Of a DNA stretch of 64,000 nt, positions 14,759 to 64,000 are shown piece after piece. Both the position numbers and the translations under genes were made by a program. Position 1 is the stretch's first letter, and each line of letters opens with the position of its first letter. Under the pieces are notes generated by a model. It was not told the origin of the DNA, made no database searches, and worked only from the letters and a program-made list of their open reading frames with translations. Source of the stretch: Halichondria panicea (Eukaryota; Porifera; Demospongiae; Suberitida; Halichondriidae); NCBI RefSeq assembly GCF_963675165.1, contig NC_087385.1, positions 2,294,501 to 2,358,500 of the forward strand, written 5' to 3'.

Positions 14759-15662
14759 TTATTTGGAACATACTACACAGTTAAGTTCTTTAGCTGGTTC
14801 GTAGGGTGGACAGGGCAGTCCACTGCAGGATGCTTCAGCATGCTGAAACCTAAAACCAATGGTACCGCCACCAGCACTCCCGGCAATCGATTCTTGGTCT
14901 TCGTCAACGCATTCGAACCTAGTTCGACTCCATTGATAATAACTAGTCATAATGTAGCCATAGTACTCTCTTGTCCATGATTTAGGGCATGTAGCTTTAG
15001 CTGGAATCATGATGATCTTGGCTCGGTTAGAGACCTCACATACAGCACAAGGAATGTTGTGATGGTTAACTCCTTGAATAGGTTCATTATATTCTCCTCC
15101 ATAGACATACGCATGATTTCTCACTCCTCCTGCGTGTGGAAGAATATATTCTGGGTCTGTCGGCATACATAGGTAATTGCCACCGCCTCCTTTGTGTGAG
15201 TAATGCGTCCCCCCGGCAATTCCGGAGTAGAGAAGCTCTGTTCCAGGAATGTCTGGACAGGAGCTCTTTCCCCATCGTGTGTACACCACCCCTCCACTGG
15301 CTGGTCCGGAAGGCCCTTGTGATCCAATTTTACCCTCTGGTCCAGAGCCTCCCCTTAAACCTGGTGACCCGTCTCTGCCTGGCGCCCCAGGTAGACCATC
15401 TCGACCGTCTCTGCCTCTCAGAATCTCGATATAGGTTGTCCGATTGTTTTCTGTTATTGTGATGCCTCTCTCTTCTCTTTGCAGAATATTTCCTGTATGT
15501 TGTACATTTATATAGTAGGGATGCAATTACACATAATTTTGATATCTACGTACGTGACTACAATGTCATGTAGAGTCTAATTTATGAGTAGATCTTACCA
15601 TTTGCTGCTGTTGAAATGCAGAAGGTGATGAACACAACTCCAGACAAGTTCTTCAAATACAT
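14759..15662 (-). CDS. Short-chain collagen C4-like secreted protein
   Basis: Secreted matrix protein of the sponge short-chain (spongin-type) collagen group. Exon 1 (15662-15599) encodes a signal peptide, MYLKNLSGVVFITFCISTAA, and ends in phase 1 at a GTAAG donor. Exon 2 (15492-14759) joins in frame, giving 265 aa. After a short linker, residues about 47-85 form 13 uninterrupted Gly-X-Y triplets (GRDGRDGLPGAPGRD...). A globular C-terminal domain of about 170 residues follows, with the motifs known from Ephydatia short-chain collagen C4: YTRWGKSSCP, GTELLYSGIAGGTHYSHKGG, NYLCMP, CAVCEVSNR, IPAKATCP, GLPCPPYEPAKELNCVVC. Cysteines are paired in number as expected for an extracellular domain. 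The triple-helix tract is very short. The gene supports a poriferan source. Confidence 0.92.
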
Positions 15663-19518: not shown

Positions 19519-22500
19519 ATGCTCAGTAAGTGTCATCTAGTGCATGTTCAGAGGAATTCCTATCCAATCCAAAACTTCTGAGCTAGCTAGCTAGCTACAG
19601 CTGACAAAAAAGCACTCAAACATTTATTAGACTGTCAGTAAATCTAGTGCCTATTGATAATACTTCCCTGGCCTGGTAGGTATCATACATACTCTGAGAA
19701 AGTATATTGGTGCTAAAATATGTCCTAGCTGGTGTATGATAAGAGACACGAGTATCCATGGTGATAGTGTAGCTTAATTAAACCATATCTGAGCTATTAT
19801 ATTCTAGGAATGAGCACACTCCAAATCTAAAGCAAGCATAGTTGTTATTGCAATGTCTTACTCACATCTGTTGTTCACTTGCAGGCTGCCTCAGATTCTG
19901 CAGGTCAGGAGAAAGTGATGCTCTCTTTCAGCAGGCGGTTAAGGTTTGTGCGTTAGTGCATCGCTTGTTTTAGATACTTGAATAAGGGTATCTGTTGGAT
20001 GAGCTAACACCAACATAAATTGTCAGGAACTTCTTTACAGTTCATAATAATACTGATTGCAAAGCGTCATGTAAGAACAGCTTTGTAAATAAGAAACAGC
20101 AATTGGTCAATCTATCCTGAGTCATGAATACTGTCAGTCAACGATCTAATAATCTAATCATGTCCCCAGGCTGTGAGTGGTGTGCCTGATGTGGAGGTGG
20201 TGTGGGTGGGAGAAGAAGTGGAACCAGACAAGAACCTTATCTACGTCTTGGCATCGTTCGACACACCTCGCTACAACTCTCTGCTCAACAAGTGCAGGTG
20301 AGCCATTGCTCATTTCTGTCTCTAGGCAACAGTAGGCAATATTAGAGAGTCTCTTGTTAATCCGTACATGTATAGTTGGTTACATCGTAATTTGACCGTT
20401 AGTATGTCGAATCATTTGTTTGACCCACCTTATGATTGGAAACTAGTTGAACCGTTGCCATGGAAGGATACAGTACACCATAAAAAGATTCTCACTATTC
20501 CCCCCACAGGATAATCGGGCCTGCTGTCGTACTGGCTCACTTGGAACATGGATGGGTGAGTAGCAGTGGATAGTAACTCTATAGTAACTTCTTGTTTCTA
20601 TAACTACCAAACTCCTACACAGTCTCCTTCAATGAATGTATACACTATAAAACTTAAAACAGGATGTGTACTGTACGTAGGTTACAGTAGTACTTATAAT
20701 AATAGAAGCAGTCTTTTCGCCCTGCTTTGGACATTGTTTCTCAAATAGTGTATAGAAGACAGTAAATTGTGCTTTTATTTCTACCCACCCCATATTTAAT
20801 AAATAACGCGTTCTCTATTACGGTATGTTAACCCCCCTCCCCTCCTCAGCCATTCCCGGCTAGTTCCCAACCAGTGTTCTCTCTGGCCATGCATGGAGTG
20901 GTGGCTTGCTTCACTCAGGCAGGGAACAAAGAGAACAGAGTGAGTCATTGTCGTCATGCAGCTACACAGTAACTATGCAACTGCCCTTTTATAGTGGTGG
21001 ATGTTAGTACCCTGATTGATCATTTCTTCTTTTAATAAGCTCAGTGTGCTTCAATGTAGGATGTAGATGTAGCACTTTGCCTGGCTAAGAGCTGCTATAA
21101 GCACACGCATGCACTTATAGTGCGTAATGGTGTTGAGTAGTGCAGAGCCTTAACCCACTGTAATGTACAATCATGTAAGTCCCAAATTTGGCCATTCTCT
21201 TGCAGCTAGTGAGCAGAACTCTATGCATGATTATAATTATGTGCTTTAAGTTTTATTGTCTGATATGGTAGTTTAGCTATAAAATTATTCGGAGCCGCAC
21301 AGGAATATGGTAAAGCTGACTGTGTGTTGTTGTCTGTCTATTCCAACTTAAACTGCTCAACGGTTGTAATGCGACGAATATTTACGGCTTCTATAGGCTT
21401 CTAGCCACGTTTCTAGAGTTATGGCTAGTTGCAGTCTCTTCAGAATCTTTTATAGCATCATCTGTTAGCATAAAGTTTCTATTTAACTTATGAGTTAGCC
21501 TTGCACTAAAGCGCTAGCTATGTATTAATCACAAAAAGCAGCAGCCATTGTGAACTTTGACCTCTCTGCAAGTCCTTGACAGGAAATGCACAGTGTTTCA
21601 CACTTTTGCTCCTCCTCCATAACACCCTAATACTTTTCACCAAAACAAAATATGCCTCAAGGGGTTAAATACTCGTTAAACCAGTCTTGTATATGAACCT
21701 GGTCGCTTCTATGTACAACTGTTAAGCTGCATTCTTTACGGCATCAGTTTCTCACTGTCTCATTTCAAATATCGTGTGGTACAGTATACATGAAATTATA
21801 AATGTACATGTACATGTGGACTTGTTGGGGCAATACTTATGCTAGCCGTCTAGTCGTACAAACAACCAAACACTCAATTTAGACCAGTAAAGTTGTACAA
21901 GGCTGGTTTGCTGGGACACCGTACAATGCTGAGTAGACAAGATACTGTAGCATCGCTTGGTATTAAGAAGTGTTGAGTACTATTCGCATCTGGATAAGTT
22001 ACTTCACACACACACCGAACCCTTTGATGTGAATCGTCTGGTCGTAGATAGGCTGACTCTAGAAAGATTCCGAACCGGTTAGAACTGTACTCACAGCGCG
22101 TACTCAGCGTGTAGTGGCCCTGCATGAGTACATCCAGTTAAATAATAACTGTATTGATGTACATGTATTGTTATGTATACTCTAAGATGAATAGGAAGTT
22201 GGAACGTGCAAGTGCACAGTTGGTAAATAATATAGTATTATTTTGTGCATTTGTGCATTTCACCCATTGTTCCTCTAGTACTGGTAGCTTATTTGTGCCA
22301 TACTGCATGGTTGACCGAACTAGTTTAACTTCCTATAGGTGAACTGCACGTACCCTAAGTTAGTAATACAATGCTGAGTTTATAAAGTAACTCATCATGC
22401 CTGTAGCTGGTTCACTTACAGGAGAGTCCATCGGTAATTCCTCTGTCGAGCACTGTCTCCAATAATGGTTACTGGCTGGACCCAGGTCACACGTTCTTCT

Positions 22501-25500
22501 CTCCGAGAAGCAGCCATGATAGAGATCAATTGGGGAGCTGATTAGACTTTTCAGTATGTTTAGATCGTTTTGAAGGGTGGTGCAGTTTGACTCTTGTATC
22601 TGCTGTAACTCATCTCGCACGGCTGCTAGCTCTAAGTTTAGTGACACGACTGTTGCAAGTGATATTAGCAGAGCCAGGATACACAATATAGCTATGCTTA
22701 ACAGTTTGTAGTCTATTGATTTCATGGAGTGTAGTCTGCTGTATGTTTCTGTGGGCCCCCAATTGAGGTGATTGTAGGATGACTCATCAGACCCACTTGG
22801 TAGTGGCCATCTGAAGAATCTCCTGTGTTCGTCATAGGCCGGATTCGATACCACGTTTTGAAATGATCCAGGATTTCTATGTGTAGGCGAATCTTCAGTT
22901 TCGAGCGGTTCATCTGTTGTAGATAATATATCAATGGGCGTGTCTTCATAAGAGTGACTTGACTGATAAGCACGGTTGTTTATCAAGCTTGACTCTAGTC
23001 TTGAGCTTTCAGTACTACTGCTTTTCATCGCTATAAAATCTGATGTTGGCTCCATCTTTAGGGAGCAGTAGACCAATTCTAGCTGCTGTGTTATGTTATG
23101 GCCTGTAATCTGACATGTGATAGTATGTGTCGCTCATAGAATGCCAGATTGTATGCATTGTGTCATTTTTAACAACAATGTGTTCTAATTTGCTAGATGA
23201 TTGGCTGTATATTTATGTGCGTAGTATGCTCCGTGCATGCAGGTCTAGCCTAACATTCAACTGTTGTTACGCGTATAGCAGCGAGGAAATAAATTTGACA
23301 AAATAGTTGGCGAGTCTATGTAGGGATCACCGAATAAATATTCTCTAATGTTCAATGAAGTGTGCATGCCTTAATCTATCTTAGGTAATCAGTAACCCAT
23401 GCACAGCAAGATTGCCAAATAAAACAATTATTCTAATCACCATGCAAGTATAGCTCACCAAATTAAAACTACCTGTTATACGGTATACATGTAGTAAACC
23501 TGTACATTCATGTATCAATGACATGCATCTTATACTATTATTTTGGTTACTCAGTTCCGATTTTAGTCTTGCTACATGTACATTGTATATACTATGGTGT
23601 TGATGCGTCCCATATTGTGTGTTAGTCAATCCAATTTCATTTTGACTATAATTTTATGTTCATAGTTATGTACGTATAATTATGTGCTGTTGATCATAGT
23701 CTTACAAATTTGTGCTTTAGATACTTGTAAGTCGCAACTAAAAAAATATTCTGTTTGTAAGGGCAGTGAGATTTTCTTGCACTATTGCCAGATCTTGTTA
23801 AACTTGGTTCCTAAGCTGTGATATATAGTCAGTGTTAGCAGTAATGTTGGTCATCAGGGATGATAGATTCTGCTGCAACTCTTGTAGCTGTACAACCTTT
23901 ATGCTCATTGCAACGGTTACTGCTATGCACAACACAAGACCCAAGATAGATAAGATAGATAATAGAGCTAGGCCATAGAATAATTTATTCGTAGATCGTA
24001 CACCACTGTGTTTTTCTCCAATCTCTGTGTACTGTTGACGGTATTTTGCTGCACCTGCCACTGATTGTTGGTAAAGAGGATTTATTCCTCCTCTGTGCTG
24101 ATGATACATGTATGCTGGATTGGCTGTGAGCTGTGTTGATTGACTAACTGAATGGAAAATTCCCATGGAGTCGACGTACTCGTACAGATCACTTGGCACA
24201 GAACTATGCTGTTGCGGTGACCTTCTAATCACGTCTTCATCTAGCTTCAGATAATCTGAGATTTTTGGTTCCATGTTCAGGCTTAGTCGTAGAAATTGAT
24301 TCGATTTGTGATAGTCTTGATACGTCTGTGAAGCTTTATAGTGTTAGGAAGAATACATGTAGTACTCTGTGTAATATGCAACTGCCACTGAAAACAGTGA
24401 ACATGTCCATTTAAGAAAATGCTGTATTCTTTATTGTATTCTTATATCCGTTTTAATGTTTGAGTGTAGTAACAGGATGATCATTGTCTTTAGGTATTTT
24501 CCACTGTGACATACATAGATGATACAAGGTCATCTATACGGAACTATCCAAAATGACCTTACTGCTCAAATCCCCCAAAATACAATGCTTAGTAAATTAT
24601 TGGGGCGAGTAAAGCGAGTCCATATACATATACCTTTTCTTCAACGTTGCATTTTTGTCTGTCTGTATTATGTGTGTATGTCGTGTACCAGCACGATAAT
24701 TTGCTTTTGGGACTCATGATCCTTTACCTAATTTACTCGATCATGCGCAATAAGCTGGCAATTATTATACATCGATCAGCTACAGAGACTCCTGAGGCCA
24801 CAGGCACGCCTGGCTCAAATGGGGACTCATGAGGTCACACAGGAACACCTGCAGCATCTGACTTGCTAGTTGCTACGAGTAGTAGAAGGTTGTTGTTTTC
24901 ATCAACAATAAATATTGATAATACTCGGTCAGTCCTTCAGTAATCAACATAATATAGCTACTGGTGTATGTCAGCAATTGGCAACACAGAGCTTAAACAG
25001 ACACAGACACTCCTGAGAGGCGGCAGGCACATCGAAAATCTCAATGTTTTGGAAATATCTATGGGATTTAGAAGCCCAAGGCACTGATTTAGTATCCCGA
25101 GCGGCTTCTAAATCACATGGACACTGTCAAAACAGTGTCTAGATTGCGCAAACCTTGCCTCAGCTTGACTATAATACAACAAGTTTACTTTGCTTGACAA
25201 CAGGATACTAAATAAGTTGCAGGTATACTAAGTCTCATAGTATACCTCCTCTGAGGCGCTTTTCCCATGTACTTCCATGTAGATCTTATCTAGTGTCTAT
25301 AAGAGCTAATTTGTTACTGAACAGGTTACGTAGAACTAGACAAGTAAAATTTATGGTTTGTAGCACACAAAAAACCAAATTGCACCTAAGATAACCATTC
25401 CTCAAAACATTTTCCAGGGGAAGATTCCCCTCAATTAAACGTTTCCCCCTCCCAGCTAAAAAAATCCTGTATGAAACCCTGTGTAAAACTTACAGTAATG

Positions 25501-28500
25501 CTAATGGGAAACTGTTCAGTTGAACACTGCCTCCAATAGCGGCCTGTGGTTGGAGAGAGGTAACACTCAGCCGTTTTTTCATAGCAATTCTGATAGAGGT
25601 TGACAGGAGAGCTGATTTGATTTGTAAGGGTGGTGACATCGCTCTAAATTGTGGTCTGATCTAGTTGGAATTGGTTCTAGCTAGTCAAAAGCTGCGATAC
25701 TGTACTGTCCAGTTGTGTTACCCTTGGACCTGCTGTAGGTGTCTCGATGACTCAACACTTTCGGACAACATGTCCACTGAAGATTGTAGGGAAAGGTGCT
25801 CTTGCTGCAACTGTTGTTGGGCCGATGACAGTTGAGTCACCATATTTTTGACTACTTCAACCTCTTCCAGAGTTACATTCAATTTATTCTCCAAAATTTC
25901 AATATCTTGTAAAGTGTGAGTACTATTAGCTGGAGGAGCTGTGGTATATGCACAATTCTTTCCTTGATCTTCCGAAGGCAACTGTACACGTGTAATGGCT
26001 AATTGTTGCCAAAAAAGGTGTACTTTGTTACTGCATGTATAACACTGTCTGTGTTTAATACAGCAGTGTGCTTTGTTGTCAAGAGTAAGAGTGTTCTTAT
26101 TTACTTTTGTTATTGTATAAACCAGTTTGACAACAATAGCTTATTGTGTTCTTCTGCATGCCTTGTTTTATTGAACAGGTGCATGCACACGTCCGATTTA
26201 TGATGACAGACACAATCAATTGTTACCTTTTTAGTTACTGTATATTCTACCGAGATTACGCCCACCCTAATTGAAAGGTGGGATGAGTGAATAGTTTTGT
26301 CTCGAAATTACGCCCACTCACTAAGAAACTATTATAAAGTATTTTCTATCGGAGGCCTACCAGCGCTTGAAATACATTGAATACAACAATGGTATAATGC
26401 ATTTGTGTGTAAAGTAGTGGAGATGTCCACGCAAGGCTACGGTTAGCATTATTTTTTTTTTAGAAAACAAATTTGTTAAAATTTGTGTTTCATCCAAGGA
26501 TATAGGTCACAGTATAAATGCTTGTCTACTTGGCGTTCAGCATGGTCTTGTGTCTTGTGATAATAAACCTTGCTCCACAATAACATTGATAAACCAGACA
26601 GCAGATCAGAAAAGTACTATTAAGCTACATGTACATTAAACCTGAAACGAACGGGAGTCCTGCATGGGGTCACAGGCACGCCCAGAGCAGATCACAGGCA
26701 ATTTTTCACAGTATAGTAGAGGACTATTGCTTGTACTTGTCATCCTGCAAGAGGTCCCAGGCTAGGCTGAAGCATACGTATCTATATACCGTATAGTGGG
26801 TAATCTTCGTGGGGCAAAATATTCGTGGTTTTCGTGGTTGGAGGTCTGACCACGAATATTTTACCCACGAATGAAGCGACCTTGCCTACCTTTACTTGCA
26901 GTGCAAGCTAAGCAACCACGAAAATATTACCCACGAAATGTCTCAATATTGCTGAACCACGAATATTTTGTCCCCCGAAAATTACCCGCTATACGGTATA
27001 TGGCTGAGGCTATCACCACGGTACAACCATCTAAAAACAAATCATCACTACAACTATCATGAATCATCACAGTACAATTAATTAAAACTCCAAATTTTGA
27101 ATTCAAACGCTGCTGCTCCCACATGACACCATGTGTGACCATGTAGTTATACATAACTAGTTGTACAAAGTGGATGCAATAGGACATCTGATAATAGTCA
27201 GTTTGCAAAATAGGTCCACATCACTGTCGCCAGGTATGAGCCAATGACCATCTGCATCCTCTCTTGGGTAGGTTGTATCGCACACACAACGAACATTCTG
27301 GTTCGAGTCGTTTGGTCGCAGATATGCTGACTCTTGAAAGATTCCAAACCGTCTTGATCGATGCTCACATCGCATACTCAGTGTGTATTGTCCCTGTATA
27401 GAAGTGAATAACAACAACTGTCATCAATTTATTTGCCTACGTATAATCCCATTATATAGCCTTACACATATAATACTAGTGGAAACTACACCTGTCACCT
27501 GGACATGTCAGTGCATATATGCATGTACGTATCTGTATATTGATTAATGCAGAGAATAGAAAAGTTTGTCTCCCGCATACATGTATATACAAAATTCTAT
27601 GGAGCTTAATCCCCTAAGTATATATAAGAGCTAATTTATTAGTCGTTTACTGAACATATAATTACTACACTACAGTTATACTAGGAGAATGCAGAGCATG
27701 TTTGGGGCGAGCGTGGGAAAATTGTGTATTTGGGTTCTCTTGTTACAAGGTGTAGCCATTATATTATTGCAAACCTTGCCAAATTCTAAAACAGCACAAC
27801 AGTAGATCTAATGCGGAGCCTAACCAATATCTCACGTATAAGTTGGTAAAGGATCATGAATCTCAAAAGCAAATATCGTGCTGGTCCATATATACATATA
27901 CAGACAGACAGACAAAATTGCAGCGTTGATGACTAGGTAGGGACTCGCTTTGCTTGCCCCAACTATACCGTATAGCGGGTATATTTCGAGGGTGTAAAAT
28001 GTTTGCGGTTTTTTCACTGATTCAGCACGTACCGCGAACATTTATAACCCACGAATTTAATATCACATGCATGTGCATGCTGTAAAAAGGCTGCTATTCG
28101 CGAAAACCTTTCTAACAATCTGTACTAATGACAATGTTCTTACTGTAAGATAAAGATTAACAACAATGCATGCATGCATGTACATGTAAGACTTACAGTT
28201 ATGCTAATGGGTAGCTCTCCAGTTGAACACTGCCTCCAATAGCGGCCCATGGTTGGAGAGAGGTAACACTCAACTGTTTGTTCATAGCAATTCTGATAGA
28301 GATTGACAGGAGAGCTGATTTGATTTTTTAGGGTGGTGACATCGCTCTGAAGTGTGATCTGATCTAGTCGGAATGTGTCCACTGAAGATTGTAGGGAAAG
28401 GTGCTCTTGCTGCAACTGTTGGTAGGCCAATGAGATTTGAGTCACCATATTCTTGAGTACGTCAAGTTCTTCCATAGTTGTATTCAATCTGTCCTCCAAA

Positions 28501-31500
28501 TTTTCAAAATCTTGTGGAGAGCGGGTGCTATTAGCCAGAGCTGTGGTACATGCACAATTCTTTGCTTGTTCTGCTAAAGTTTCTTGCTGACCTATCTCAT
28601 TATGAAGGCTTGCTTGTGCTGTTATAATCCCCAACACCGCTGCTATGGACAAGACAACAGCCAAAGTAGCCACCACTGCTAAGCAACTTAGTTTGCAGCC
28701 TGTTGTCTGCTTCTTGAGCATTAGTTGGCTGTAGATTTGTTTAGATGTCCTAGATAAACTAAACAGATGATTATATTCTGTTGTATCTGTCTTACCTACG
28801 TCTTCATAAACTGGGTTTATTGTTACATGCTCAAATGAGTCTCCCATAGTGCTGGAATCTCCATTGTTAGTGGTCTGTTCGTAGTCAGGTTCAACGTGTG
28901 TTATGTAGCCACTGTTGTACACCATGCTGTGTTGTCCTTCTGATCTGACTGAGCTGTATATATCCTTCTCACTTATCTCCATCTCTTCTGGCTAGTTCAA
29001 TGTCTGATACATATAGTACTATAATAGTTATGTGCGCTGCTTTACCTTATGATAGGCAAGCTGTATAATGGCTAATTACTTATTCTGAACAGGTGTTTTA
29101 AGTATATACGTTCTTTGTTATGGTACAAACAGTATTACAATAGCTTATTGTAGACTGTTTATTGTTTTTCTGCTTCTCTTTTCACATAGTGCTGGTGCAT
29201 GTGATGTGTTGCTGTGCATGGTATGATCGTAACCAGGAGTGCATGGATAGAAGTATCTGACTACCAAGCACATTTGATTTTCTCTGTTGACAGTGCAAAC
29301 ACTTGTTTCATCAAAACTAAAAAACATTTGCGATGTGAACGTTGCTAGGATTGCCAGGAAAGAAAAGCGCGAAAAAGCGAAGAAACAAGAAATTCGGCGA
29401 GTACATAACTCCAACGTCATTCACATGTACTGTTTAAGCTATTTTTGTTTTGGTACTTTTTCTTGGCCAATCCTTTCACATTGCAATTATAGTGATGTTT
29501 ATGATTGTGTTTTTGATCTGACAGTGTTTGAGCAAACACACTAGTGTTGGATGTGTGCGGGGTGGAAGTATTCCAAGTTTATATGACCAGCAGATAAAGA
29601 CCCTTTCAAGAGGCATAGATCTAACTACTTCTTCTACAACAATGAGTACTGTGTACTGTGTTCTTTTATATCATAGAAAGTCAGTGTTAGTAGTAATTAT
29701 TCAAACCATTGTTTCACTGTCCAAAGGTGAATTCTTATTGTAGTGCAATGACTGTGCATTTTACCCAACCTGTATTTTGATTCTAAAATTCCTTATCAAC
29801 AGTAGGTCACTCGACTGTACATGTTCATGACATTGTAACGGATTGGAGTTATGCACTCGCCAAATTTCTTGTTTCTTCGCTTTTTCGTGCTTTTCTTTCC
29901 TGGCAATCCTAGCAACGTTCACATTGCAAATGTTTTTTAGTTTTGATTCCCTTTCTTTTTCATTACAGTAGTACATTAATAAATTAATATGACGTTGCCG
30001 GATTAATTTGTCATCGTCCTGTAATCTTGTTGAAGATAATAATTATGTAAGTGGTCGTTTGACAGAAGTATAATTATTATTATACTCCTCAATAATGAAA
30101 GTGAAATACCTAAGAGGAACATGAAGAAGCAAGAGAAGTTCAAGAAGAGAAGACAGGACTGGAATATAAAACATTATTATTTTATTCAATCATTTATCTA
30201 TATGATAAAAATAATTGCAGCCATGTTTATACTGTAGATGTACTTCCAAGTGCAAAAGCATGGAGGCCTACAGTCAGTGCATACGTCTAGCATGCATACC
30301 TAAAGTGAGAGAATGTAGAGCTGAGACGTTGAGCTGAAGAAAGGAGGTTTTGATGTCACAGCCACGCCCATCTCATAAGTTGCCATGTGCGTTGCTGTGG
30401 CAGTCATTTAAAGATGGCGGAATTGCGTAGGCAAGAGAAGTGAAGCATGAGAAGTCACCTGCTACCTCTTGGAAGCAAACGCAATTCTGAGAAAAACGCC
30501 CATGGTCCGGTTTGTAATTGACTAGAGGCTGAACATGTCTGTACAAGGAGGAAATGCTTTCCAAGAATATTACTTACTTACTAACTCAGTCAGACGAAAC
30601 GCGGTGAAATATGAAAATAGTGCAAATATCAATAGTAATGCATGAGAGTATTCATAGACTATAATATCGCACATTTAAAAGGCTAACTAAGCTATCTATC
30701 CAGTCCATTTCTTGCTGTGGCCTTTCCCTGCAGAAATAGAGCAGTCTAAACACGAATCAAAATGTGTGCAATAATTGAAAACACACACTACTGCACTGTC
30801 AATCCTATGTACAACCTACTGGTTGTACTAATACAGTATAATTATGAAGTAATCTCCTAAAAATTCCACTGCAATACACAGACACACACACACAGACACA
30901 CACACACAGTCAGCTTTACCTTATTCCTCGTGCTGCTACGCTACTATAGGCATAATTATGCATACGCTTACACACCATCAACAGACACACTTGTGTGATG
31001 TTATGTGCATTTTCATCGTAAGTGTATTCGTGCACTCTAGCTGTGATTGCTATGATAAGTATACGTATAGTATGACGGCGGTCACAACACAACGAAGCCA
31101 TGCATTGTCTAAAATGTGTGGGAGGCAGATCTCCTAATCATGACCAGCACTCCTGTTGTGACTAATAGTCCCCCGGGTTTATTTCAGTGCGAGTTAGCTG
31201 GTTAATTTTCACCCGCTTGAAATATCCTGTTACCCGCTTCCAACAAGTAAATTTTCTACTTGCACCTTGTCGATTACCTGCTTAATATTTAAAACCCACG
31301 TTTTCACCCAATTCTGAAAGAAAGCCATGTTGTCCCAAATATGTACATTGTACGTTGAGCAATATGCCATTGTCATGTGATCTCTACCTACTTAATTTCC
31401 TTGTCAGAAAACTTGTTCATTGTGAAAAGGAGGTGCACATAGTAAATTTTGCAGACACACATGATCGTTCTATAGGACTTCAATTACTGTTGGGCATCTA

Positions 31501-34500
31501 GTGATGACTAAATTGCATGTGTACACTAGACCACTCGGCAGTATAGCATGTCCTGGGGTGTTCTTGATCGGATTGGTCACTTCACAAGCACATTGCACGT
31601 TGCCCTGTCCGTCAGGTCGTATGTAGGTAGACTTGAGGAGGGAGCTGTCATCTCTGTTGCAACTCTGCTCACAGTGCATGCTCAATGTGAAAAAACCCTG
31701 TCAATAGTGTGTGGTGTACACATATAAATATAGATGTCATTGAAACGTGAGCACTTTATAACTCTGTCAACAATGTCCAAACGATCCATAACACTGCACA
31801 ATGTACTTCTTACATAATTATAGCTCCACTAAGCTGTTAAAAAAGTAGTCTACAGTGTGTAATAATATCTATTGAACGTAGCTCTGTTCTTATAACGAAT
31901 CCTCATGAACGTTAGGAACATGCATGCACACTTATATGCATGATATTATAACTTACATCTCTTGTAATAGGCTGAGAATTTGTGAAACATTGACTCCAGT
32001 AATTGTTTCCATTTGCTGTGCACATAGTCGTATCATCGTAGCACGCCTGGTAGAGGCTAATGGAAGTACTTTGTCTAGTAGATGAGTTCATCATGCTGTT
32101 TACTTGTGCTGTCAAATTATCCAATGAGGAAAGTAAAACTATTTGCTCTTGCTGTAACTCCTGTTGGTTTGCAGAAAGCCGAGTCACATTATCCTCAAGC
32201 TGCTGTATTTTAGGATCTTTTAGATCTACTGCCTCCAAGCTCTGAAATGTAGTCGTAACGTTTTGTGCTTCTTCCTGGAGTATTTTTATCTCTCCTTTTA
32301 GGCCTGCTACTTCTATCTTTGTCACTACCAGCGCTGTTACAGACAAGCTACATGCTACTATGCACAGTAGAAGTAGCAATACCATTGGTAGAAGATTGCT
32401 TGGTTTACCTTTGTATACTTGATCGTTGTTCGACTGCACCTGCTGCTTTTTTCGTGCCCAACTGAAAAGACGGTTGTATCGTCTGGTCTCATACGCAGGG
32501 TTAGCCATCATTTCATTGCTTTCCTGGTTGTCTTTTGCATCTGTCATACTAGTCACTTCGTACACCGTATTGTACTCCAAACTCGTCTCCATCTGCTCGG
32601 CATTGCCATCTGCAGATTGCAAACTGTTGTTCTCGTACTCGTTGATGGTTCCACTTCGTCCAGGTAGCTCCATTCTCACTCGAGTTGTGCTGGTAGCAAG
32701 TCACTCTACAGTCATCACCTATTGTTTCAATGAATTAACATGTCAGGATTGTCCACTCAAATATGGACATGGTCTGATCTGTAAAATCAGGCTATGGAAG
32801 TATTGCAGATAATTACCATTGTTTTTCAGGGTGGGGTATTTAATGCTAAACGATTCATCAGTTGTTTTAATTCATGCTATGGAGTAGAAAGTTGTGTTTT
32901 GTGATATTGATCCCCGTCCCCCGTCCCAAGTTGTTGTATGCAAGTTTTCACTTATGCTGTGTAATTTTAAATTTCGAATGCACATGTTTTTCCTGCGCAG
33001 GAGAAACTGACACAGCTCGTGCGATTGATGGGTGGAAAGGTAGAAGGGGACTTCACAAAGAGAGTAAGTTGTAGCTACTACCGTATAGCGCGAAATTTTC
33101 GAGGCACTTATATTTCGTGGATTGGCCTCTAAAAGCCATTTCGTTGCACAATGTTCGCGGAATGACTGCTTACCGGAAGCCACGCCTTTAAATATTTGCA
33201 TGATAGCAGGTAATTCTAATTAAAGAACAATTTTCGTAGACTTAATTTTCGTGTACAATTCTAACCCACGAAATCCGCGAAAATTAAGCCCCCCGAAAAT
33301 TTCGCGCTATACGGTATTTAATGGGTTGTGAATAATTTCAACCCATGAATGGCTGAGGAGGTGCGAAGCACTTGATCTTAGTTAATTAAGGTCACTACTT
33401 TTAGCCGAGTTTTTAGTGCTGTATAGGCTTAAAACGTAGTTGGGTTATAATTTATTTTCGCCAATTTTGCTCAGAAGCAAGATACACAGTGGAGCAGCTT
33501 GTTCTTGAGGTCAACACAAAACTGATCTTTCAAGTAGGGTTTTGAGTGAAATTGGCAAAATAAAATTATAAATACCCAACTGACATTTTAAGCTTACAGG
33601 CACTAAAAACTCAGCTAGAAGTAGAGAAGGTAGGAGAAAACCAATGATTAGTGACCTTCATTAACTACGGTGAAGTGCTCTGCACTGCGAATGGCCTGTT
33701 AGCTTTAATGTCAAGTTCTTAATTCCCACACCCTATACAAATAATTATGTCATGGCATGATGTTCAGCCAATTTTGGGGGTCTATATGAAGTTTATAGTT
33801 TAATTACGTAACCATATATGCATATAATTATTCTCCTATATGCTTTCATTCCTATAGCGGACCTTTAACATTCACATTTATGTTAATCTAAGTACGCATA
33901 TTGTACAGTACATAGCACAGCGATTACGTTCAGTACCAGTTATGTAGTTAGTAAACAGCATGACTGTGTAACTGCTATATAGCTATAGGTGTTCAGTTAA
34001 TTTTAGTCAGCCATACACGTACATAGCTTCTTGATATCTGCTATTATGTGTTACAATGCAAATGAGGACGCAAGAAACTTTTTTTCTTGTGGCAGGTCTC
34101 TGGAGAACTCTATAATACATGTATATACACGTAGCTCCTATGATTATGGAAGATGGTCTATACATGCAATTTGATAGTAATCTCTCCAAATCAACCGACA
34201 TCTTACGTGTACGTACGTACATTCATGCATTGTAATTTTGGAGACAATATAATTCATGTGCATTCCAATGACAAAATTCAGCTGGTATCAGAGTATAATA
34301 CTCAGTACTGCAAATATAGAACATATAATTATATTATGCATACATGTATATACGATACAGTCGTATTGATTACTATACTGTATGCCTGAGTGTCTATGGG
34401 TTTTTGACGCCGTACACTGTACGTGTTGGTGAATAATGTATTGCTGTATAGCGGGTAATTTTCGTGTGATAAAAATTCGTTATTTTCCTGGGCAAGCTGA

Positions 34501-37500
34501 CCTCGACGAAAATTTACCCACGAAAATGTAGGCGTGGTTTACTGAAACGCATGCAATGCAGTGCACCTAATGACATTTTTTACTCACGAAATCACCGCTG
34601 TTCAACTCCCATGAACATTATTTGCTATACGGTATAATTATAGGTACGTATGTACATGTATATGATGACCCGTATATACGTATGTATGATGATCCATACC
34701 ATGGAAAGTACTAATTGTTTTGTGAGTGTAAATCAATGGACTTGTACACAACTAATTGTAATCAACTACTTTGAGTCCTTCTTTCTGCTAGTGAAATATC
34801 CCACTCCACCCAAAATCGCACCCCCAACGAGAGCTCCCACGGCTAGAGGCACTGCTCCAATCCCTGAGCTAACAACGCCCACGCAACCTCCTACAGCAAC
34901 TCCAGCTGCACTGAATTTTGTTATCCTCATTAATATTTCTTTTTTCGTGTGGTCATGTACTACGATCGGTTGAAGCTCGATATCTTGTTGAAAATCTTTG
35001 TCTCTTGTATCTTGACGATTCTGTATTCGTTCGGCATTCATCGAGTAGAAAGCGTTTTTAGTTTCAGGTGTTGAAATAGTGTCCAAGCAACCGAACCACA
35101 ATTCTGTGAACCAATATTCGCGATCAGGTAGGCTGCGAACGTCATAGTAACCGGCTGGTAAAATTTTTATAGCATGTGCTACATCTTCTGAAACTTTCGC
35201 CTCTGTTATTATTAGATTTCGTACCTTTTTATCAAACTTAAGAATTTCTGCAACAAATTTTTCAACTTTCTCGCTTGGGCGAAGTCTTGACCAGCTAACG
35301 TGAAAATTTTCAATCGTATTCGCAAATGTAAGAACAATGACAGTCTTCTTCCAAATCTCCTCACTAAAAGCTTCGGTTAAAGTGCGAATGACGGAAGCCT
35401 CTGGATTTTCAGTGCCCGGCACGAACCGTGTTACACTTGAGTTGATACAGTATATCATCAAATCAATGTTTTGTGAGCACTTGTCAACCATTTCTTGGAC
35501 ATAGGCCTCTTGGTTCTGAGTCCCATCGTATAGTCCCGGGGTGTCCCAAACTGTGGCTAACACATCATCTTTCCTGCACTGGTACTGCTTGACCTCTGCA
35601 TGATAAAAATAAATTTCAGAGATTGGATGTTTATTATGCCTCGGTGCACATGCACAAGCGAGGTATACGGTAGAGTGTGTGTGTGTGTGTGTCTGTGTGT
35701 AGACTGCTGCAGCTGCTCAAGGATCAATAAAGTGCAATAGGCTTCTAGTTATGTTTTCTTGGATCTTAATTCGTGGATTTGCAAAATAATGCTTCGTTCT
35801 CGAGTTATGTTTACTTTTGCTTACTTGGAATGCCATTGCAGCCTTTTCAGAAGAGCACATAGCCAAACTTGTTTACCGAGTGTTGCTACTCTACTTAGTA
35901 GTTAGCTCTCTGCACTAGAACGCTAGCTATTGGTAGCTGCAAGAGTGAGAAGAGAGCTGCAATTAAGGCTCTGCTGATGCAGCCATTAGTTTTAGACTCA
36001 AACTTTTGTTTTTAACAACAATCATGGGTCGATCATTACCCACTCTTTGAGTTTGCATGCAACAAATTGCAAAAATGTTCATCATGACGGTGTATAAGTT
36101 CGTAGCTTTATGTTATGTAGCTTTGGCATCTCCACCGAGGCATCAGCACCTGCGGTGCTTTCATTTATTTGCTTAGCTATAATAATAATTATGTAGTACA
36201 CTTGTAACACAGCGTGAGAAATTATTGCTACAGTACACCCCTATAGTATACTTTTCATTTCCAAATGATACTCACCATCAGGGGTCATAATTATTATGCA
36301 CTGTGAAAAATGATATGTGACTTCAATACGTGCAGTCTTTGACATATGTATAAGTTTCCCGGGAGTTTTAGAACCGAAATGGGTGGTACCAGAGCCACTA
36401 CATAGACTTAAACATCACGTGAACCGCTTCTGGTTGTACTATTGGATCGGTGCTATAGTGACAGTAGTCTGTTTGCTTTCAGATTAGCCCCAGCTTTTCA
36501 TGTTTAGCTCAAAAAACTTGTTTGCAAGCTTTAGTTTTACTGTATAGCTAGGCTACTACTGTAATGGGCCCTACCAGTGGTGCATGTCTTTAGCTGAGTG
36601 TTGCTGTCATTTTCTTTTGCTTCTCCTTCACCATAGATAGTATCTATTCCTTCATCCTTGATCTTCAAGCCAAGTATCCCGTTCACGAGTGATGACTTCC
36701 CACTGCCTGCTTTACCGGTCACTAAGATATGGATCTCACGGGTCTCCTTGATATGACCTTCAGAAGTAGCCATACTCAACTCTTTGAAGTTGTGGACACT
36801 ATTTTTCTCCTATCAGTAGATCTACAGTAATTTACTGTATGCATTTACTGTGTAGGTACAGTATTATGGGACTGTTTACTTTACTAATTCTGTTTCTAGG
36901 ACACTAGATCATCTGATATAATGAATACTCTTGTAATCCAAATTTAGACTTGTAGGCCTATTTTTACATTTTGATCTCTTTAACAAAAATGGATACCGAG
37001 AACAATGAAGATGGTTTTCGAATAATGGAAGATAAAGGAAGCGATTTGGACCTTTCAAGGCTTTCTTCCGAAGTCAAGAGTCACCTAAGCTCTACAAAAG
37101 TGGCTGCCATTTTACGCAGTGGCAAGTCCATAGATATCCTTATTTGTGGTAAAACTGGCGGTGGAAAATCAACTCTAATAAACGGATTAATGGGAGTCAA
37201 ACTTATGGAAAAAGAGGCTGCTAAGGAAGGTGACAGTTTAACTCACTGCACCACTCGAGTGGATGAGTACAAAACGATCAAGGATAAAATTACTGTTACT
37301 GTGTGGGACACTCCTGGTTTACTGGATGGCACGGACAAGCAAGACGATTATTTGAGGGAAATTGAAGACAAATGTCCTCCCATACACCTCAAATTATTTT
37401 GTATAAGTTGCAGCCAAACACGATTTGTTTCTGGACCAAATAATGCTGATAATGGTGATTTCTTGGTCATGAAGAAGTTCACTGAAGCCTTTGGAATGGA

Positions 37501-40500
37501 ATTTTGGAAAAATACCGTTATTGTCCTTACTATGGCAAATACGGTAGAAGCCTTCAAACCCAAATGGAAATATTTGGCACCATCCGACAAACAACAAGAA
37601 TTCACGCAATACATCAATGAATTCAGGTCAAAAATTCGTTCTATCCTTGAAGACGATATCAAACTTGATAAAGACATTGTTACAAAGATGAAAATTGTTC
37701 CTGCTGGTCACTATGATGATAGAAAGCTTCCTGGTCGTGATTACTGGCTCTCTGACTTTTACTTTGAATGTCTGGACGCCATTCCCTCACCAGAAGCCAA
37801 AGGAGCTCTCCTCAATTTAAGCCTAGACCGGTTCAAGATGAAAAGTGAGGTGGTCGACAGTAACTTCAAAGAAGATGCTGAAATGCAACCGATTGTTGTT
37901 GATGTGGAGAATGGTTTTGTTATAATTTCCGAAACGATTGAAAACTGTTCAATACCAGTTGGGTCTGCAGCTCCTAACGATCAGCCTACTGAAGGTGGCA
38001 TAGGCACCAAAGGAGCAGCTGGTATCGGTAGTGGTGTGGGGGGTGTGGTTGGGGCTGGGCTTGGGTTTATCGGTCTTCTTGGTGGCCCACTCGCCTTTTT
38101 TACGGTTCCGGCTGGAGCAGCTGTTGGTACTGCATTGGGAGCTGGCCTGGGGTACGTCACAAAGAAAATTATCGGCTCAAGTGAACCGTCAGCCAGCAAC
38201 GAGTCTAAAACTGAGAAAAATTGACATTAATTAGCTAGCTCTATTTATTATATACTCACAAAACTTTGTAGGATCCAAAATGTTTACAGAATGATATTTT
38301 CTTAGTTTGTTGTTAACTCAGTATTTCTTTTGAGATTAAAACTTGGTAAATATAATGTGGTTGCTGTTCATGCAGGCTATTATACATGTACATTAATCTT
38401 CTTTGCATTAGGTAACCCACCTGATAGCCGGACATGTTGGCAGCACCAAGTACCATGTAAGCTTACATGAACTGCATCTCCACAGTTTGTAGGGAGATAT
38501 CAACTCGTCACATTGTAGAGAGCTAGGTTGTCCTTTTTCCGAGGTTTAATATATTTTGTAGGAAATAACATTTAGGGGGCAGATCAAAGCAATATATATA
38601 TATTTAGGTATATTAAGTGTTCTTATAGTTCCACTGTGTGTGCGATGATTAAATATTCATTCTACATAATTTTATATGTACAAGAATCAAATGCGAAGGA
38701 TTTTTGAGCTCATAAATACTTTTTCATTTAACATGTACTCTTATCTCCCAGGTGGCTCGAAAACTCCGGCTCCCAGTGTTACTACCATCCTGGGTGGAGT
38801 CCTGTTGGGGTGATGGCCTTAAACAAGTGATCTACGCCACCGACCCAACCACCTTCCCACCTCATCAGGCACCACCATTCACCGGAATTACTATCACTGT
38901 TACAGGACTCGACGAAAAAGCAAGGTCAAAGGTCAAGAATACGTGCTCGGAGAACGGAGGGAAATATTCCGGAGAGTTAACAAAGGACGTTTGCACTCAC
39001 CTCCTAGTGGGGAACAAGTCCAGTAAGTGCATGCATGTGGGTCATAGTTTATAATTATAGTATCTTCAATACTCAGCTGGGTTTTTTCCTAAGATGCTCC
39101 CCATAAAAGTCACGAAAGTCACGTTATTTCCACTATTGTCTAAGATTTGTATGTACATTTGTTGTTGCATTCAGCACATTGAAATGATTAATAAAAACTA
39201 GAGGATATTTTACCCGAGGCGCGCGTGGGCGGCCACGGGTATAGTAGTCTGTTGGTTTGTTTGTATAATGAGTGAGTCTGCTTACCTGGATGGATAGCCT
39301 TCATACAACAAGTAATAGTAGCAGATTTTGATGTTAAAGCCTCATTGTCGAATAAAAGCGAGCAAAAACGAACTTGCATGTTGGCAGCTAGCTAACTACA
39401 CGCGGCCTTTATTCGAAACAGATTCCGTATTTGCAGCTGAAGTGATCCCGTACCCTAATTATGGAAAAGGGTAACTAAAGTAGAAAGCTAGAATTGTGAC
39501 TGCTTCGAGTGGATCCTAGCGCCAAGGCTTCTCTGAGACTCTAGGCTTCTTTGCTGTGATCCTAATCCACAGTACATGTCTCATGGTCTCATGTACAGGC
39601 CTACCACTAAAACTCTATTCTCAGCATGCCTCATGAGTCCACTCTGATTTTATTGCTCCTGAGTTGCTGTGCTAGACATACATACTACATGCACTGGATC
39701 GTCTGGTTTCTTTATGCATGTCACCAGCCAGGGCTTGCACTTTAGTGCTCTATAGTTTCTCATTTGACACTCTGCCTAATAACTTGTGGTATTGAGGTAA
39801 TTTATACTACAAACGCACACACTTTTGGCATCCAGGTGAGTGAACACACACAGACAGACAGACTAATAAACCAACAGACTAGTATAACACACCAGAGGAA
39901 GTCGGACATCACTTGAACTTTCACTAATTATGACCTTTTAATGACATTCCAGGCCAAATTACTTTTCGTTTTTGCTGACTCAGCAGTAGAATACGACTGG
40001 ATTTAGCTTGTATGGCTATTATATGCTGATAGGGTTAGGTCCAGTAACCATCACAGACACCAACACAACAAGTTGTCAACAGATTCAGCGACAGAAACCG
40101 TGCAGAAACATTGTCTCATAAATCAGTCGCCCTCTATGACATGGACTCGTGATTAGGCCGCCCAACGTTTAGAGGGCAGCTGAAATATAAGACTAGCAGA
40201 AGTACAGTAGACGTTACTGCTGAGTCAGCAAAAACGAAAAGCAATTTGGCCTGGAATGTCATTAAAAGGTCATAATTAGTGAAAGTTCAAGTGATGTCCG
40301 ACCTCCTCTGATAACACACGGCTGCCTACACGCGGCTGCCTACACGCTGAACACACACACACAGACAGACTAATAAACCAACAGACTACTATAACACGCG
40401 GCTGCCTACACTACACGCCGAACACACACAGACAGACAGACTAATAAACCAACGGACTACTATAACACGCGGCTGCCTACACTACACGCCGAACACACAC

Positions 40501-61410: not shown

Positions 61411-61969
61411 ATTTTAATGCGGTCTGGAATCGAGGCTAGACTCTAAATAATGTGCCAGTACAGTGATAGCCTCGAGACCAGACCGGCCTGGATTCGAGGC
61501 TAGTACAGTGCCCATGTGATGATTCACGCATGCGTATAATTATAGTGAGAATTGTTTTAGGTTGAAGGTTTAGACCGCTAATTAAACTGGCTCCCGGGTC
61601 CCCAAGCAAGTACTGTATATAGTCTATATAGATATATCTAGGTACTGAATTCCACTTCAAATGCAGGTAAAGTCTAGATTTAGTAGACTAAGTAGTATAC
61701 ATCGAGTAGTACCATGCAGGTTTGCTTATTTGTGAGCATGTTCAATAAACCTATCATGCGATATGCATGTATGCTCATGTATTCTGTTACTGTGTACTAC
61801 ATAGATCTAGATCTAGTTATAGTAACTGATTTAATTACAAGTATGTATCTACAGTAATCTAATCAGGCAGCTTGTTTAAATATCCTGCTTTCATTTTCAC
61901 AACACCTGAATGCAGCTCAACTCTTCATACATGACTAACTAACCCAAGACCTGCCTCGTATTTTATCAG

Positions 61970-64000
61970 ATGTGTACACACAGCAGCATACCCACACAAG
62001 TCTTCATTGAAATGGATGAATCAAGTTGCGACCTCTTCGATATTGTTCAGAACAATCATTTAGATCAGCTAAAACAGTTTTCTGGAAACAGACTTTTGTT
62101 ACAACGAAATAGAGAGGGAATGTCTCTTCTTCATGCTGCAGTAATAAGCAATAATCTTGAAGCACTTCAATTTTTACTCGATGAAAACATAATTCCAATC
62201 AACACACAAGATAAAAACAAAGAAACAAGTCTCCACTTATCTGTAAAAAGTGGCAGCACTGGTACCATGACAATGCTATTGAAGAAAGGAGCCGATAACA
62301 TGATAAAGAATAGTGATAACAACACACCTCTCCATTTGCTACTTCAGAGCGATAGTGAAAGTGTTGAGCAGCTGTCCGAATTCTTGAAGCATCCGGTTGA
62401 CATTTCGGTAAATGGTGCGAACGGTTCTTCAATATTCCATGCTATAGTAGAGAATGACAACATTGAAGCACTCAGGCTAATTGCTCGATTGCAAGTATTG
62501 GATACTGCCAAGTACTTCTACAATAACACATTTTGCTTGCAAAATGATTTTGGAATGTCTGCAATCCACTATGCTTCGTTGAGAGGTGCTCATAAGGTGC
62601 TAGATTTCATGTTGTCAAAAGCTAGGGAGTCCTCTGATTCTCACCTTAAAAAAGTCCTCTGCCATCTAGATAAGAGACTCAATACACCCCTCCATATTGC
62701 AGTAGAGCACGGTCACAAAGGTACAGTTGATATTCTTCTTAAGTATAAAGCCTCACCTACAGCTATCGAAGGAAACAAATTGCCACCGATTCACCTAGCT
62801 TGTGTGCAAAACAAGATGGATATCGCTATGGCTATGGTCGAGTCGTTTGGGGTGGAAGTTCTTCTCGGTCTAGATTCCACTGGGGCCACCCCACTTCATT
62901 GTTGCTCAAAGAGTGTTTCAGAGGAACTGTTTTGTTTTGTTGTCAACAATGGATCAAATCTAAATGCACAGGACAACAATGGTAACACACCCTTGCATGT
63001 TTCTGTTGTTCACGGAAATGCTGGAAAAGTAGAATTTCTTTTAGCCAAAGGATCTGATCCAACTATTCAAAACAAGAGCGGCTTCAATCCTTTTCATTTG
63101 AGCATATTATCCCGCCGAAGGGAGGCATTTAAAGCCCTTGCAAAGTCACAACATGCCAAACGTCTGAGCCTACTACCTGATAGTCAAGGCTATTGGCCTG
63201 TTCATTTAGCCCTGAAGCACAAATTCAGTCAATCTATCCCCACTCTCGTGTCATTAGCAATGGACTCTGATTCAAATTTTGATGATTTGAATATCTTGGC
63301 CTACAAAGACAAAGATGGCAACAGTTTCCTCCACACTTCTGCAGAATCTATGGATGTGAGTAGCTTAAAGTATCTATTGTCTCTCCGTTGCTCTAGGTAC
63401 TTGCTCAATTGCTTAAACTCAGAGGGACTCCTTCCTCTTCATTTGGCTGCTAGAAGTGGCTTTGTTGCTTCTGTTCGAGAACTGGTAGACCATGGTGCAG
63501 TAGAACAAATATCGTACAACGGAGACACTCCATTCATGCTAGCTTGTCGTCATGGCCACCTTGAAACAGCGAAATTACTCATTGAAGTTTCCCTAATCAA
63601 TAAAAACGAAGTGAATAACGGTGGAAATTCTGCCCTTCACTTGGCTGCAAGAAGTAAGAACGTTGATGTGATTCTCATGTGCCTTGACCTTGGTATAGAA
63701 ATTACCTTAAACAATTCAAGAGAGAGCTTTCTTGATATCATCCTGAGGGATGCGGTAGCAGAGACAGCCATTGCTATATTAAAGCACAAGCGTTATGAAG
63801 AATGCATCAACATGTACTCCCCTGACTTGTCCCATCCTATACTGAGAATTATTGAAACTATCCCCAAAGCTTTTCAGGCACTACTGGATCAATGTATGTT
63901 ATGCTCACCACTACAGCCGGAACACCCTGACTACTGGGAAGAGTATAACTTTAAATATCTCACACTTGATAGTGGAGCACCATCTCTATCACCTCAACGA
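61970..64000 (+). CDS. TRPA1-like cation channel, N-terminal ankyrin half (open at window end)
   Basis: 677 codons remain open from ATG 61970 to the window edge. An in-frame ATG at 62012 (MDESSCDLFD) is the alternative start, and TATCAG just before 61970 could also be an acceptor. Residues about 30-590 form roughly 14 ankyrin repeats (for example GMSLLHAAVISNNLEALQFL, NTPLHIAVEHGHKGTVDILL, GNTPLHVSVVHGNAGKVEFL, GLLPLHLAARSGFVASVREL). The segment after the repeats is typical of TRPA1: SFLDIILRDAV, KHKRYEECINMYS, IETIPKAFQALLDQCM, YWEEYNFKYL. The membrane channel domain should follow beyond 64000. TRPA channels are Ca-permeable sensors of irritants or temperature. No intron in 2 kb is unusual for this locus. 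Confidence 0.85.
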   Translation, partial: MCTHSSIPTQVFIEMDESSCDLFDIVQNNHLDQLKQFSGNRLLLQRNREGMSLLHAAVISNNLEALQFLLDENIIPINTQDKNKETSLHLSVKSGSTGTMTMLLKKGADNMIKNSDNNTPLHLLLQSDSESVEQLSEFLKHPVDISVNGANGSSIFHAIVENDNIEALRLIARLQVLDTAKYFYNNTFCLQNDFGMSAIHYASLRGAHKVLDFMLSKARESSDSHLKKVLCHLDKRLNTPLHIAVEHGHKGTVDILLKYKASPTAIEGNKLPPIHLACVQNKMDIAMAMVESFGVEVLLGLDSTGATPLHCCSKSVSEELFCFVVNNGSNLNAQDNNGNTPLHVSVVHGNAGKVEFLLAKGSDPTIQNKSGFNPFHLSILSRRREAFKALAKSQHAKRLSLLPDSQGYWPVHLALKHKFSQSIPTLVSLAMDSDSNFDDLNILAYKDKDGNSFLHTSAESMDVSSLKYLLSLRCSRYLLNCLNSEGLLPLHLAARSGFVASVRELVDHGAVEQISYNGDTPFMLACRHGHLETAKLLIEVSLINKNEVNNGGNSALHLAARSKNVDVILMCLDLGIEITLNNSRESFLDIILRDAVAETAIAILKHKRYEECINMYSPDLSHPILRIIETIPKAFQALLDQCMLCSPLQPEHPDYWEEYNFKYLTLDSGAPSLSPQR

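Follow-up and report, generated by a model that had tools for sequence, protein, structure and literature searches.

A clustered family of predicted type II membrane proteins with an eight-cysteine head and tyrosine-motif tails in the sponge Halichondria panicea

What do three similar, closely spaced genes in the genome of the sponge Halichondria panicea encode, and what might their products do? The genes, named A, C and E, lie in a 64,000-nucleotide stretch of contig NC_087385.1 (C9:2294501-2358500), which was analysed at its full length and is called the window below; the assembly (GCF_963675165.1) comprises 131 Mb in 39 contigs. A receptor role was predicted for the family of A, C and E from its sequence. 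Specifically, the proteins may be stalked type II receptors, encoded in clusters, that serve recognition, signal by way of phosphotyrosine and bring about uptake, a reading to which we give about an even chance. The gene models and tail motifs, including the immunoreceptor tyrosine-based activation motif (ITAM) and candidate sites for phosphotyrosine-binding (PTB) domains, were as follows, in window coordinates.

22420-23055, minus strand: gene A exon 1 (212 amino acids; open frame, GTAAGT donor), encoding the tail, membrane span, short stalk and first head part
22834-22845, minus strand: gene A NPAY, residues 71-74, a putative PTB or endocytic motif
22732-22776, minus strand: gene A ITAM YNHL-x7-YSRL, residues 94-108 (shuffle P 0.014)
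22633-22701, minus strand: gene A membrane span, about residues 119-141, by hydropathy
21877-22119, minus strand: gene A exon 2 (81 amino acids, then a TGA stop; CAG acceptor, phase 0), encoding the main part of the cysteine head
28197-28982, minus strand: gene C exon 1 (262 amino acids; open frame, GTAAGT donor)
28806-28817, minus strand: gene C NPVY, residues 56-59
28722-28775, minus strand: gene C ITAM-type pair YNHL-x10-YSQL, residues 70-87 (shuffle P 0.02)
27160-27393, minus strand: gene C exon 2 (78 amino acids, then a TAG stop; CAG acceptor, phase 0)
31957-32673, minus strand: gene E exon 1 (239 amino acids; open frame, GTAAGT donor)
32491-32502, minus strand: gene E NPAY, residues 58-61
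32467-32478, minus strand: gene E YNRL, residues 66-69, a single YxxL; E has no ITAM
31473-31697, minus strand: gene E exon 2 (75 amino acids, then a TAG stop; CAG acceptor, phase 0)

The three genes, all on the minus strand, consist of two exons each, separated by a phase-0 GT-AG intron of 300 (A), 803 (C) or 259 (E) bases that reads GTAAGT...CAG in every case. Exon 1 encodes the tail, the span, the stalk and the first three head cysteines, and exon 2 the last five cysteines and the stop. One strong hydrophobic span was found per exon 1 (best 19-residue mean 2.79-2.88), flanked by two to three basic residues in the 12 positions before it and none to two in the 14 after it. Because the span is single and the basic residues lie on its N-terminal side, an N-in, type II topology was predicted. 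The eight cysteines can be aligned across A, C and E, which share the motifs C-x6-C, YW[RS]QC, G[HQF][YF]TLS, Y[LI]RP[DN], C-x-C-x-x-T-x-P and RCP. We hold the overall architecture (tail, span, stalk and eight-cysteine head in type II layout) with high confidence. An earlier, first-pass annotation of this DNA had described a coherent type II family with an eight-cysteine head and a phase-0 second exon in a shared layout; the gene models, span and charge pattern, aligned cysteines, introns and open frames agreed with it on both points. Its motif set was present in all three genes, with RPN rather than RPD in C, but two of the motifs, YW-x-Q-C and YxRPD, are confined to the C9 genes and do not characterize the family as a whole.

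At least 39 usable copies of exon 2 were found on three contigs. C14 has 35 of them, most of which form tandem arrays at 5.83-5.96 and 6.28-6.37 Mb, with two at 4.49 Mb; C9 has three and C4 one. Genome searches with single exon-2 sequences gave 37 places, among them C14_6302162, which was picked up first by pattern and afterwards by sequence search; four were added by a later search, and C14_6297340 was added on its cysteine pattern alone. Three fragments or frame-broken copies were dropped, and the resulting 39 exon-2 sequences were aligned. Self-matches aside, exon 2 of A matched C14 copies at E 3.6e-6, exon 2 of E gave matches at E 1.2e-8, and one C14 copy used as a query retrieved nine others at E 7.3e-18 or better. 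The five cysteine columns of exon 2 are conserved in 39, 39, 38, 39 and 39 of the 39 sequences, and all five together in 38. An AG acceptor in phase 0 lies at or within 9 bases of the match start at 35 of 37 places (21 in-frame positions tried at each), and the donor reads GTAAGT in 29 of 34 pattern-assigned cases, six of these 34 rows having later been judged mis-paired or broken. All 28 usable exon 1 rows carry C-x6-C...C ahead of the donor, a count weaker than that for exon 2, since the pattern itself was used to find exon 1. The two-exon layout thus recurs elsewhere in the same genome, and the family is far from limited to the three genes named in the first-pass annotation, with about 40 copies.

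Some further matches in this genome were left uncounted: weak ones on C3 (E 1.12), C6 (E 0.26) and C12 (two at E 0.026, 21 residues), and two short C14 fragments (5956154 and 5943317). Alternative splicing to second heads was considered for two places where an extra exon 2 lies about 1.2 kb downstream of another (C14_6328575 and 6368285); both extra exons are apparently frame-broken and were read as remnants. Pattern searches for relatives gave eight stretches in viral contigs and 42 in bacterial and archaeal genomes, none of which was confirmed. In a tree of 28 heads, A and C grouped together (support 85/36) and joined E and C14_4497024/4491834 weakly (73/81); long branches make the deeper order unsafe. 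For the 17 rows that carry a label, two changes on this tree account for the distribution of NPxY.

The head itself matched no known domain, in line with what had been annotated. Pfam gave nothing above the curated cut-off for A, C and E, 13 exon-2 members or 16 whole heads, and no convincing head match was found in NCBIfam (16 heads) or by sequence in the PDB (one protein, two profiles). We attribute the weak matches to chance: in Pfam, BLOC1_2 (E 0.013), which falls on C's coiled coil, A33R (0.29), which lies in part on coiled coil, and, for single heads, Polo_box_4 (0.028), EGF_BRNP (0.056, in one of 16) and Ribonuclease (0.062); in NCBIfam, one at E 0.075; and in the PDB, SYG-2 (0.18), CTLA-4 (0.33) and PapE (0.45). 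Exon 2, which makes up most of the head, was modelled alone twice and came out all beta, with four long strands, at moderate confidence from shallow alignments (mean predicted local distance difference test score 72.6 and 75.4, three sequences each; other ranks down to 47 and 45). When these models were searched by fold, nothing in the PDB or BFVD reached E 0.001, and the highest Z values were 2.2 and 2.4. Because the models cover exon 2 only and part of the head is missing from them, this negative result says little on the true fold, and a new fold is not implied. In a literature search of partial coverage, no description of such a family was met.

The tails are where a signalling role is suggested. 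Scanning covered 27 distinct tails (30 printed minus three duplicates; four stalkless exon 1 frames in the loci L020/L021 and C14_6337623 were left out), and an ITAM-like pair was defined as YxxPhi-x6-12-YxxPhi with V allowed, the strict form being restricted to L/I. In the tail of A, NPAY is followed by YNHL-x7-YSRL, a canonical ITAM with exact spacing; in C, NPVY is followed by YNHL-x10-YSQL, and in E, NPAY by the single YNRL. The NPxY-type motifs end 44, 42 and 36 residues ahead of the span in A, C and E, and NP.Y arose by chance in 2.7%, 0.7% and 3.2% of the respective shuffled tails. Across the family, NPx[YF] occurs in 10 of 27 tails (A, C, E, the headless neighbour B described below, and six others), an ITAM-like pair in 11 and its strict form in two (A and C); 19 have at least one of NPx[YF] and the ITAM-like pair. 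Without B the counts are nine, 11 and 18 of 26 for NPx[YF], the ITAM-like pair and either. The exon 1 frames near C14_5952891 and 5957565, which supply two of these NPxY tails, are broken or contain an unmodelled intron. The single conserved NPxY site that had been taken to define the family therefore does not do so; other features absent from the first-pass annotation are the ITAM in A, its ITAM-type counterpart in C, one form that looks secreted, several that lack a stalk, and the contrast between loops and framework presented below.

NPxY and YxxPhi are also clathrin sorting signals, as in receptors of the LDL and asialoglycoprotein types. The main rival explanation, which we consider rather unlikely, is accordingly that the proteins are endocytic clearance receptors only, whose stalked heads would catch nutrients or debris with no ITAM-type signalling. 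It draws on the 16 of 27 tails from which the ITAM-like pair is absent and on the restriction of the strict pair to two. The exact ITAM spacing of gene A argues against it, as do the tails of the seven-gene cluster I, which are without NPxY and yet keep the YEHV-x8-YMTI motif residues in all seven copies compared.

The combination seen in A and C has counterparts among engulfment receptors. In two accounts, NPxY and ITAM are described together in the tails of Draper and MEGF10, and NPxY with YxxL in CED-1 (PMC8092387, PMC9388098). The same accounts list as tail partners the PTB adaptor CED-6 (GULP candidate), Src-family kinases, and the SH2 proteins Shark, Syk or NCK-1, with a phosphatase also among the partners of Draper (PMC8092387, PMC9388098), and the ectodomains are given as EMI and EGF-like in the first of them (PMC8092387). 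A and C resemble these receptors in carrying both motifs, and E in carrying NPxY and YxxL; the family as a whole does not, since 25 of the 27 tails have one or neither of the two. The sponge genes further differ in their type II layout, coiled-coil stalk, unrelated head and some 40 copies. No EMI or EGF-like ectodomain was found by Pfam over the cut-off in A, C, E or the 16 heads, the EGF_BRNP match mentioned above falling short of it.

Proteins that could read such tails are encoded in the same genome, which has 71 SH2 matches and nine PTB-exon matches in total. A Shark-like locus (L019, C9:5251500-5260500; about 5.255-5.259 Mb) has the order SH2-ANK-SH2-kinase, all by Pfam. A Syk-like locus (L018, C4:4841500-4850500; 4.842-4.850 Mb) has tandem SH2 domains followed by kinase motifs, the former by Pfam (one half-exon below the cut-off) and the latter read by eye. 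An SHP-like locus (L017, C3:8399500-8407500; about 8.4045-8.4063 Mb) reads SH2-SH2-phosphatase, one SH2 and the phosphatase by Pfam and the other SH2 from a separate search. We take these domain orders to be those of Shark, Syk and SHP-2/Corkscrew, respectively. The tandem-SH2 and PTB proteins are thus candidate readers of the tails. To our knowledge, no ITAM receptor has been assigned to Syk-family kinases in early animals. Such kinases are reported from sponges to primates in PMC9601881.

Under the recognition-receptor reading, an oligomeric stalk would present several variable heads, and these may recognize ligands carried by particles, microbes or other cells. Clustering by ligand would let Src-type kinases phosphorylate the tail tyrosines, whereupon a Shark- or Syk-type kinase with tandem SH2 domains could dock at the ITAM, and a CED-6/GULP- or clathrin-type PTB adaptor at NPxY. 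Whatever the heads have bound might then be engulfed, by analogy with Draper, MEGF10 and CED-1. According to PMC9998073, sponges have professional phagocytes and recognition receptors of many kinds.

Sequence divergence was compared within clusters as the ratio of nonsynonymous to synonymous differences per site (pN/pS). In cluster I, identity is 90% in the tails and 62% and 68% in the two head parts. Pooled pN/pS there is 0.57 for the tails, against 1.24 and 0.76 for the first and second head parts. Codons of exon 2 were further divided into framework and loops, using ten exon-2 copies per cluster and 95% bootstrap intervals. The framework gave 0.35 (0.07-1.02) in cluster I and 0.29 (0.10-0.94) in cluster II, and the loops gave 0.82 (0.59-1.24) and 1.24 (0.87-1.88). 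For the four copies of cluster III, the ratio was 0.63 over the whole exon. Judged by framework against loop pN/pS, the head framework looks constrained and the loops free or diversifying, near the neutral ratio.

These patterns bear on two other explanations. Diversified heads could serve cell-cell adhesion or self/non-self recognition by binding heads or ligands on conspecific cells, and the tandem clusters, the near-neutral loops and the conserved tails with diverse heads of cluster I would suit this; we regard the explanation as unlikely. Near-neutral loops would also be expected if most copies were decaying duplicates and function were limited to one or two genes, and frame breaks or fragments do occur in the neighbouring piece D (below), in C14_6328575, 6368285 and 6369476, and in exon 1 of 5952891 and 5957565. 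Widespread decay nevertheless seems very improbable in view of the framework ratios of 0.29-0.35, the cysteines kept in 38 of 39 exon-2 copies and the phase-0 acceptors at 35 of 37 places.

Stalk length ranges from almost none (C14_6301141 and 6302162) to more than 300 residues (C14_5918326). A 21-residue repeat, equal to three heptads, occurs in the stalks of the 5.95-Mb cluster, with about ten copies in C14_5959192. A periodicity of 3.4-3.6 residues was detected (P<0.05 against shuffles) in 25 of 29 rows, or in 21 of 25 when four repeated or borrowed exon 1 rows were set aside. Asparagine and threonine at core positions of a coiled coil would suit a trimer, and the stalk probably forms an oligomer of this kind.

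A type II plan with a stalk and a beta-rich trimeric head is that of the tumour necrosis factor (TNF) superfamily. Membrane ligands of this type, with a tail for reverse signalling or trafficking, would show the same order of parts, and exon 2 was modelled as all beta; this explanation is nonetheless hardly credible to us, as A, C, E and the 16 heads gave no Pfam match to the TNF homology domain, the exon-2-only model was without a fold match (TNF-alpha at E 1.1 is noise), and phosphotyrosine motifs are untypical of ligands.

Two receptor groups come closer in layout. Class A scavenger receptors of the MSR1/MARCO type are type II proteins with one span, a coiled-coil stalk, a C-terminal cysteine-rich head and a role in uptake. 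The sponge genes are like them in the predicted type II single span and in the heptad periodicity of the 21 of 25 distinct stalks, and unlike them in the tail and in having neither a scavenger receptor cysteine-rich (SRCR) domain nor collagen repeats: A, C, E and the 16 heads gave no Pfam match to either, and A, C and E contain no Gly-X-Y repeat. Type II C-type-lectin-like receptors (natural killer (NK) and CLEC types) combine a stalk, a small disulfide-rich head and tail tyrosine motifs with clustered, diversified genes. The sponge family shares the type II layout, the stalk and small cysteine head, the clustering and the tail tyrosine motifs, but its genes have two exons with the intron inside the head, and no C-type lectin domain was matched by Pfam (A, C, E and 16 heads); the fold models cover exon 2 alone and say little on this point. 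Because Pfam matched none of the ectodomains of these groups, the genes are not assignable, as far as their sequences tell, to Draper/MEGF10/CED-1, class A scavenger or CLEC-type receptors.

Several observations weigh against the proposed recognition receptors with phosphotyrosine signalling and uptake. The oligomeric state, ligand, phosphorylation and uptake are extrapolated from genome sequence. Animals in general have SH2 and PTB proteins, whose presence here implies no link to these receptors. The strict L/I form of the ITAM is confined to A and C, the others using V at one or more places; eight of 27 tails carry neither motif; and the exon 1 common to C14_6368285 and 6369476, near cluster I, reads YEEV and YMTT, so that the pair is lost. 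Taken tail by tail, the motifs reach modest P values (0.002-0.06), and tails of paralogues do not count as independent tests. The five genes of cluster II lack the contrast between tail and head, with identities of 54% in the tails and 68% and 67% in the head parts (pN/pS 0.60, and 0.55 and 1.23). In cluster I, synonymous divergence is also lower in the tails (0.08) than in the heads (0.22-0.28), for which reason gene conversion of the 5' part, alone or as an added cause, may explain much of the contrast there. In cluster I the interval for the framework extends just to 1, and positive selection in the loops is unsupported, as the loop intervals include 1 and the excess over 1 in cluster II is not significant.

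The gene family is new and its receptor logic is of a known kind: here a type II protein pairs engulfment-type tail motifs with an unrelated head. Tentatively, an early-branching animal may have its own set of about 40 clustered receptors, in which a head without a match in the libraries searched, with loops diversified on a fixed disulfide framework, is carried on adjustable stalks, and ITAM/NPxY tails feed Shark/Syk kinases and PTB adaptors. If so, the set would be an independently evolved counterpart of the NK-type or CLEC receptor clusters of vertebrates, and its members would be candidates for the as yet unnamed receptors served by early-branching Syk-family kinases. A family with ITAM and NPxY tails offers testable candidate receptors for the Syk-family kinases of early animals, bears on how a simple animal distinguishes food, symbionts, pathogens and self, and adds an unclassified eight-cysteine domain for structure work.

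Variant forms occur on C14. C14_5832243 has a signal-peptide-like start instead of the tail and span and would be soluble. Extra cysteines occur in both main loops of six members with a short stalk or none (C14_6305686, 6295966, 6306729, 6299745, 6297340 and 6302973), one per loop except for two in the first loop of 6299745; these cysteines may form a further disulfide. A family-like exon 1 at C14:6298716-6297756 (L020, minus strand) has a tail with about twenty short ANGPHA-type repeats ahead of the span. The neighbouring frame at C14:6308897-6307982 (L021, minus strand) has a span and a coiled-coil-like stretch with a different C-terminal part, and may be a related stalk protein or belong to a different family. 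Adjoining the cluster at about 5.965 Mb of C14 (L003, minus strand), a 225-residue frame has a hydrophobic span preceded by a long stretch rich in tyrosine (YEDTL, YDYENTL).

Two incomplete pieces lie among A, C and E in the window.

23801-24274, minus strand: B, a tail with NPAY (24110-24121) and NPLY (24071-24082) and a membrane span, then a stop
25431-26140, minus strand: D, a broken relative of C with the stalk and first head part (tblastn pieces 25494-25709 and 25835-25969)

No head was found for B, and tblastn gave no significant similarity to the family; its family link rests on place and layout only. No exon 2 was found for D. Elsewhere in the window, a frame at 14759-15526 (minus strand) has a short collagen-like stretch (below the Pfam cut-off) and a cysteine-rich C-terminal part without a Pfam name. 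Two divergently oriented AIG1-type GTPase frames lie at 34766-35716 (minus strand) and 36956-38224 (plus strand), the first about 2 kb beyond gene E, and a long ankyrin-repeat frame at 61943-64000 (plus strand) runs off the window end.

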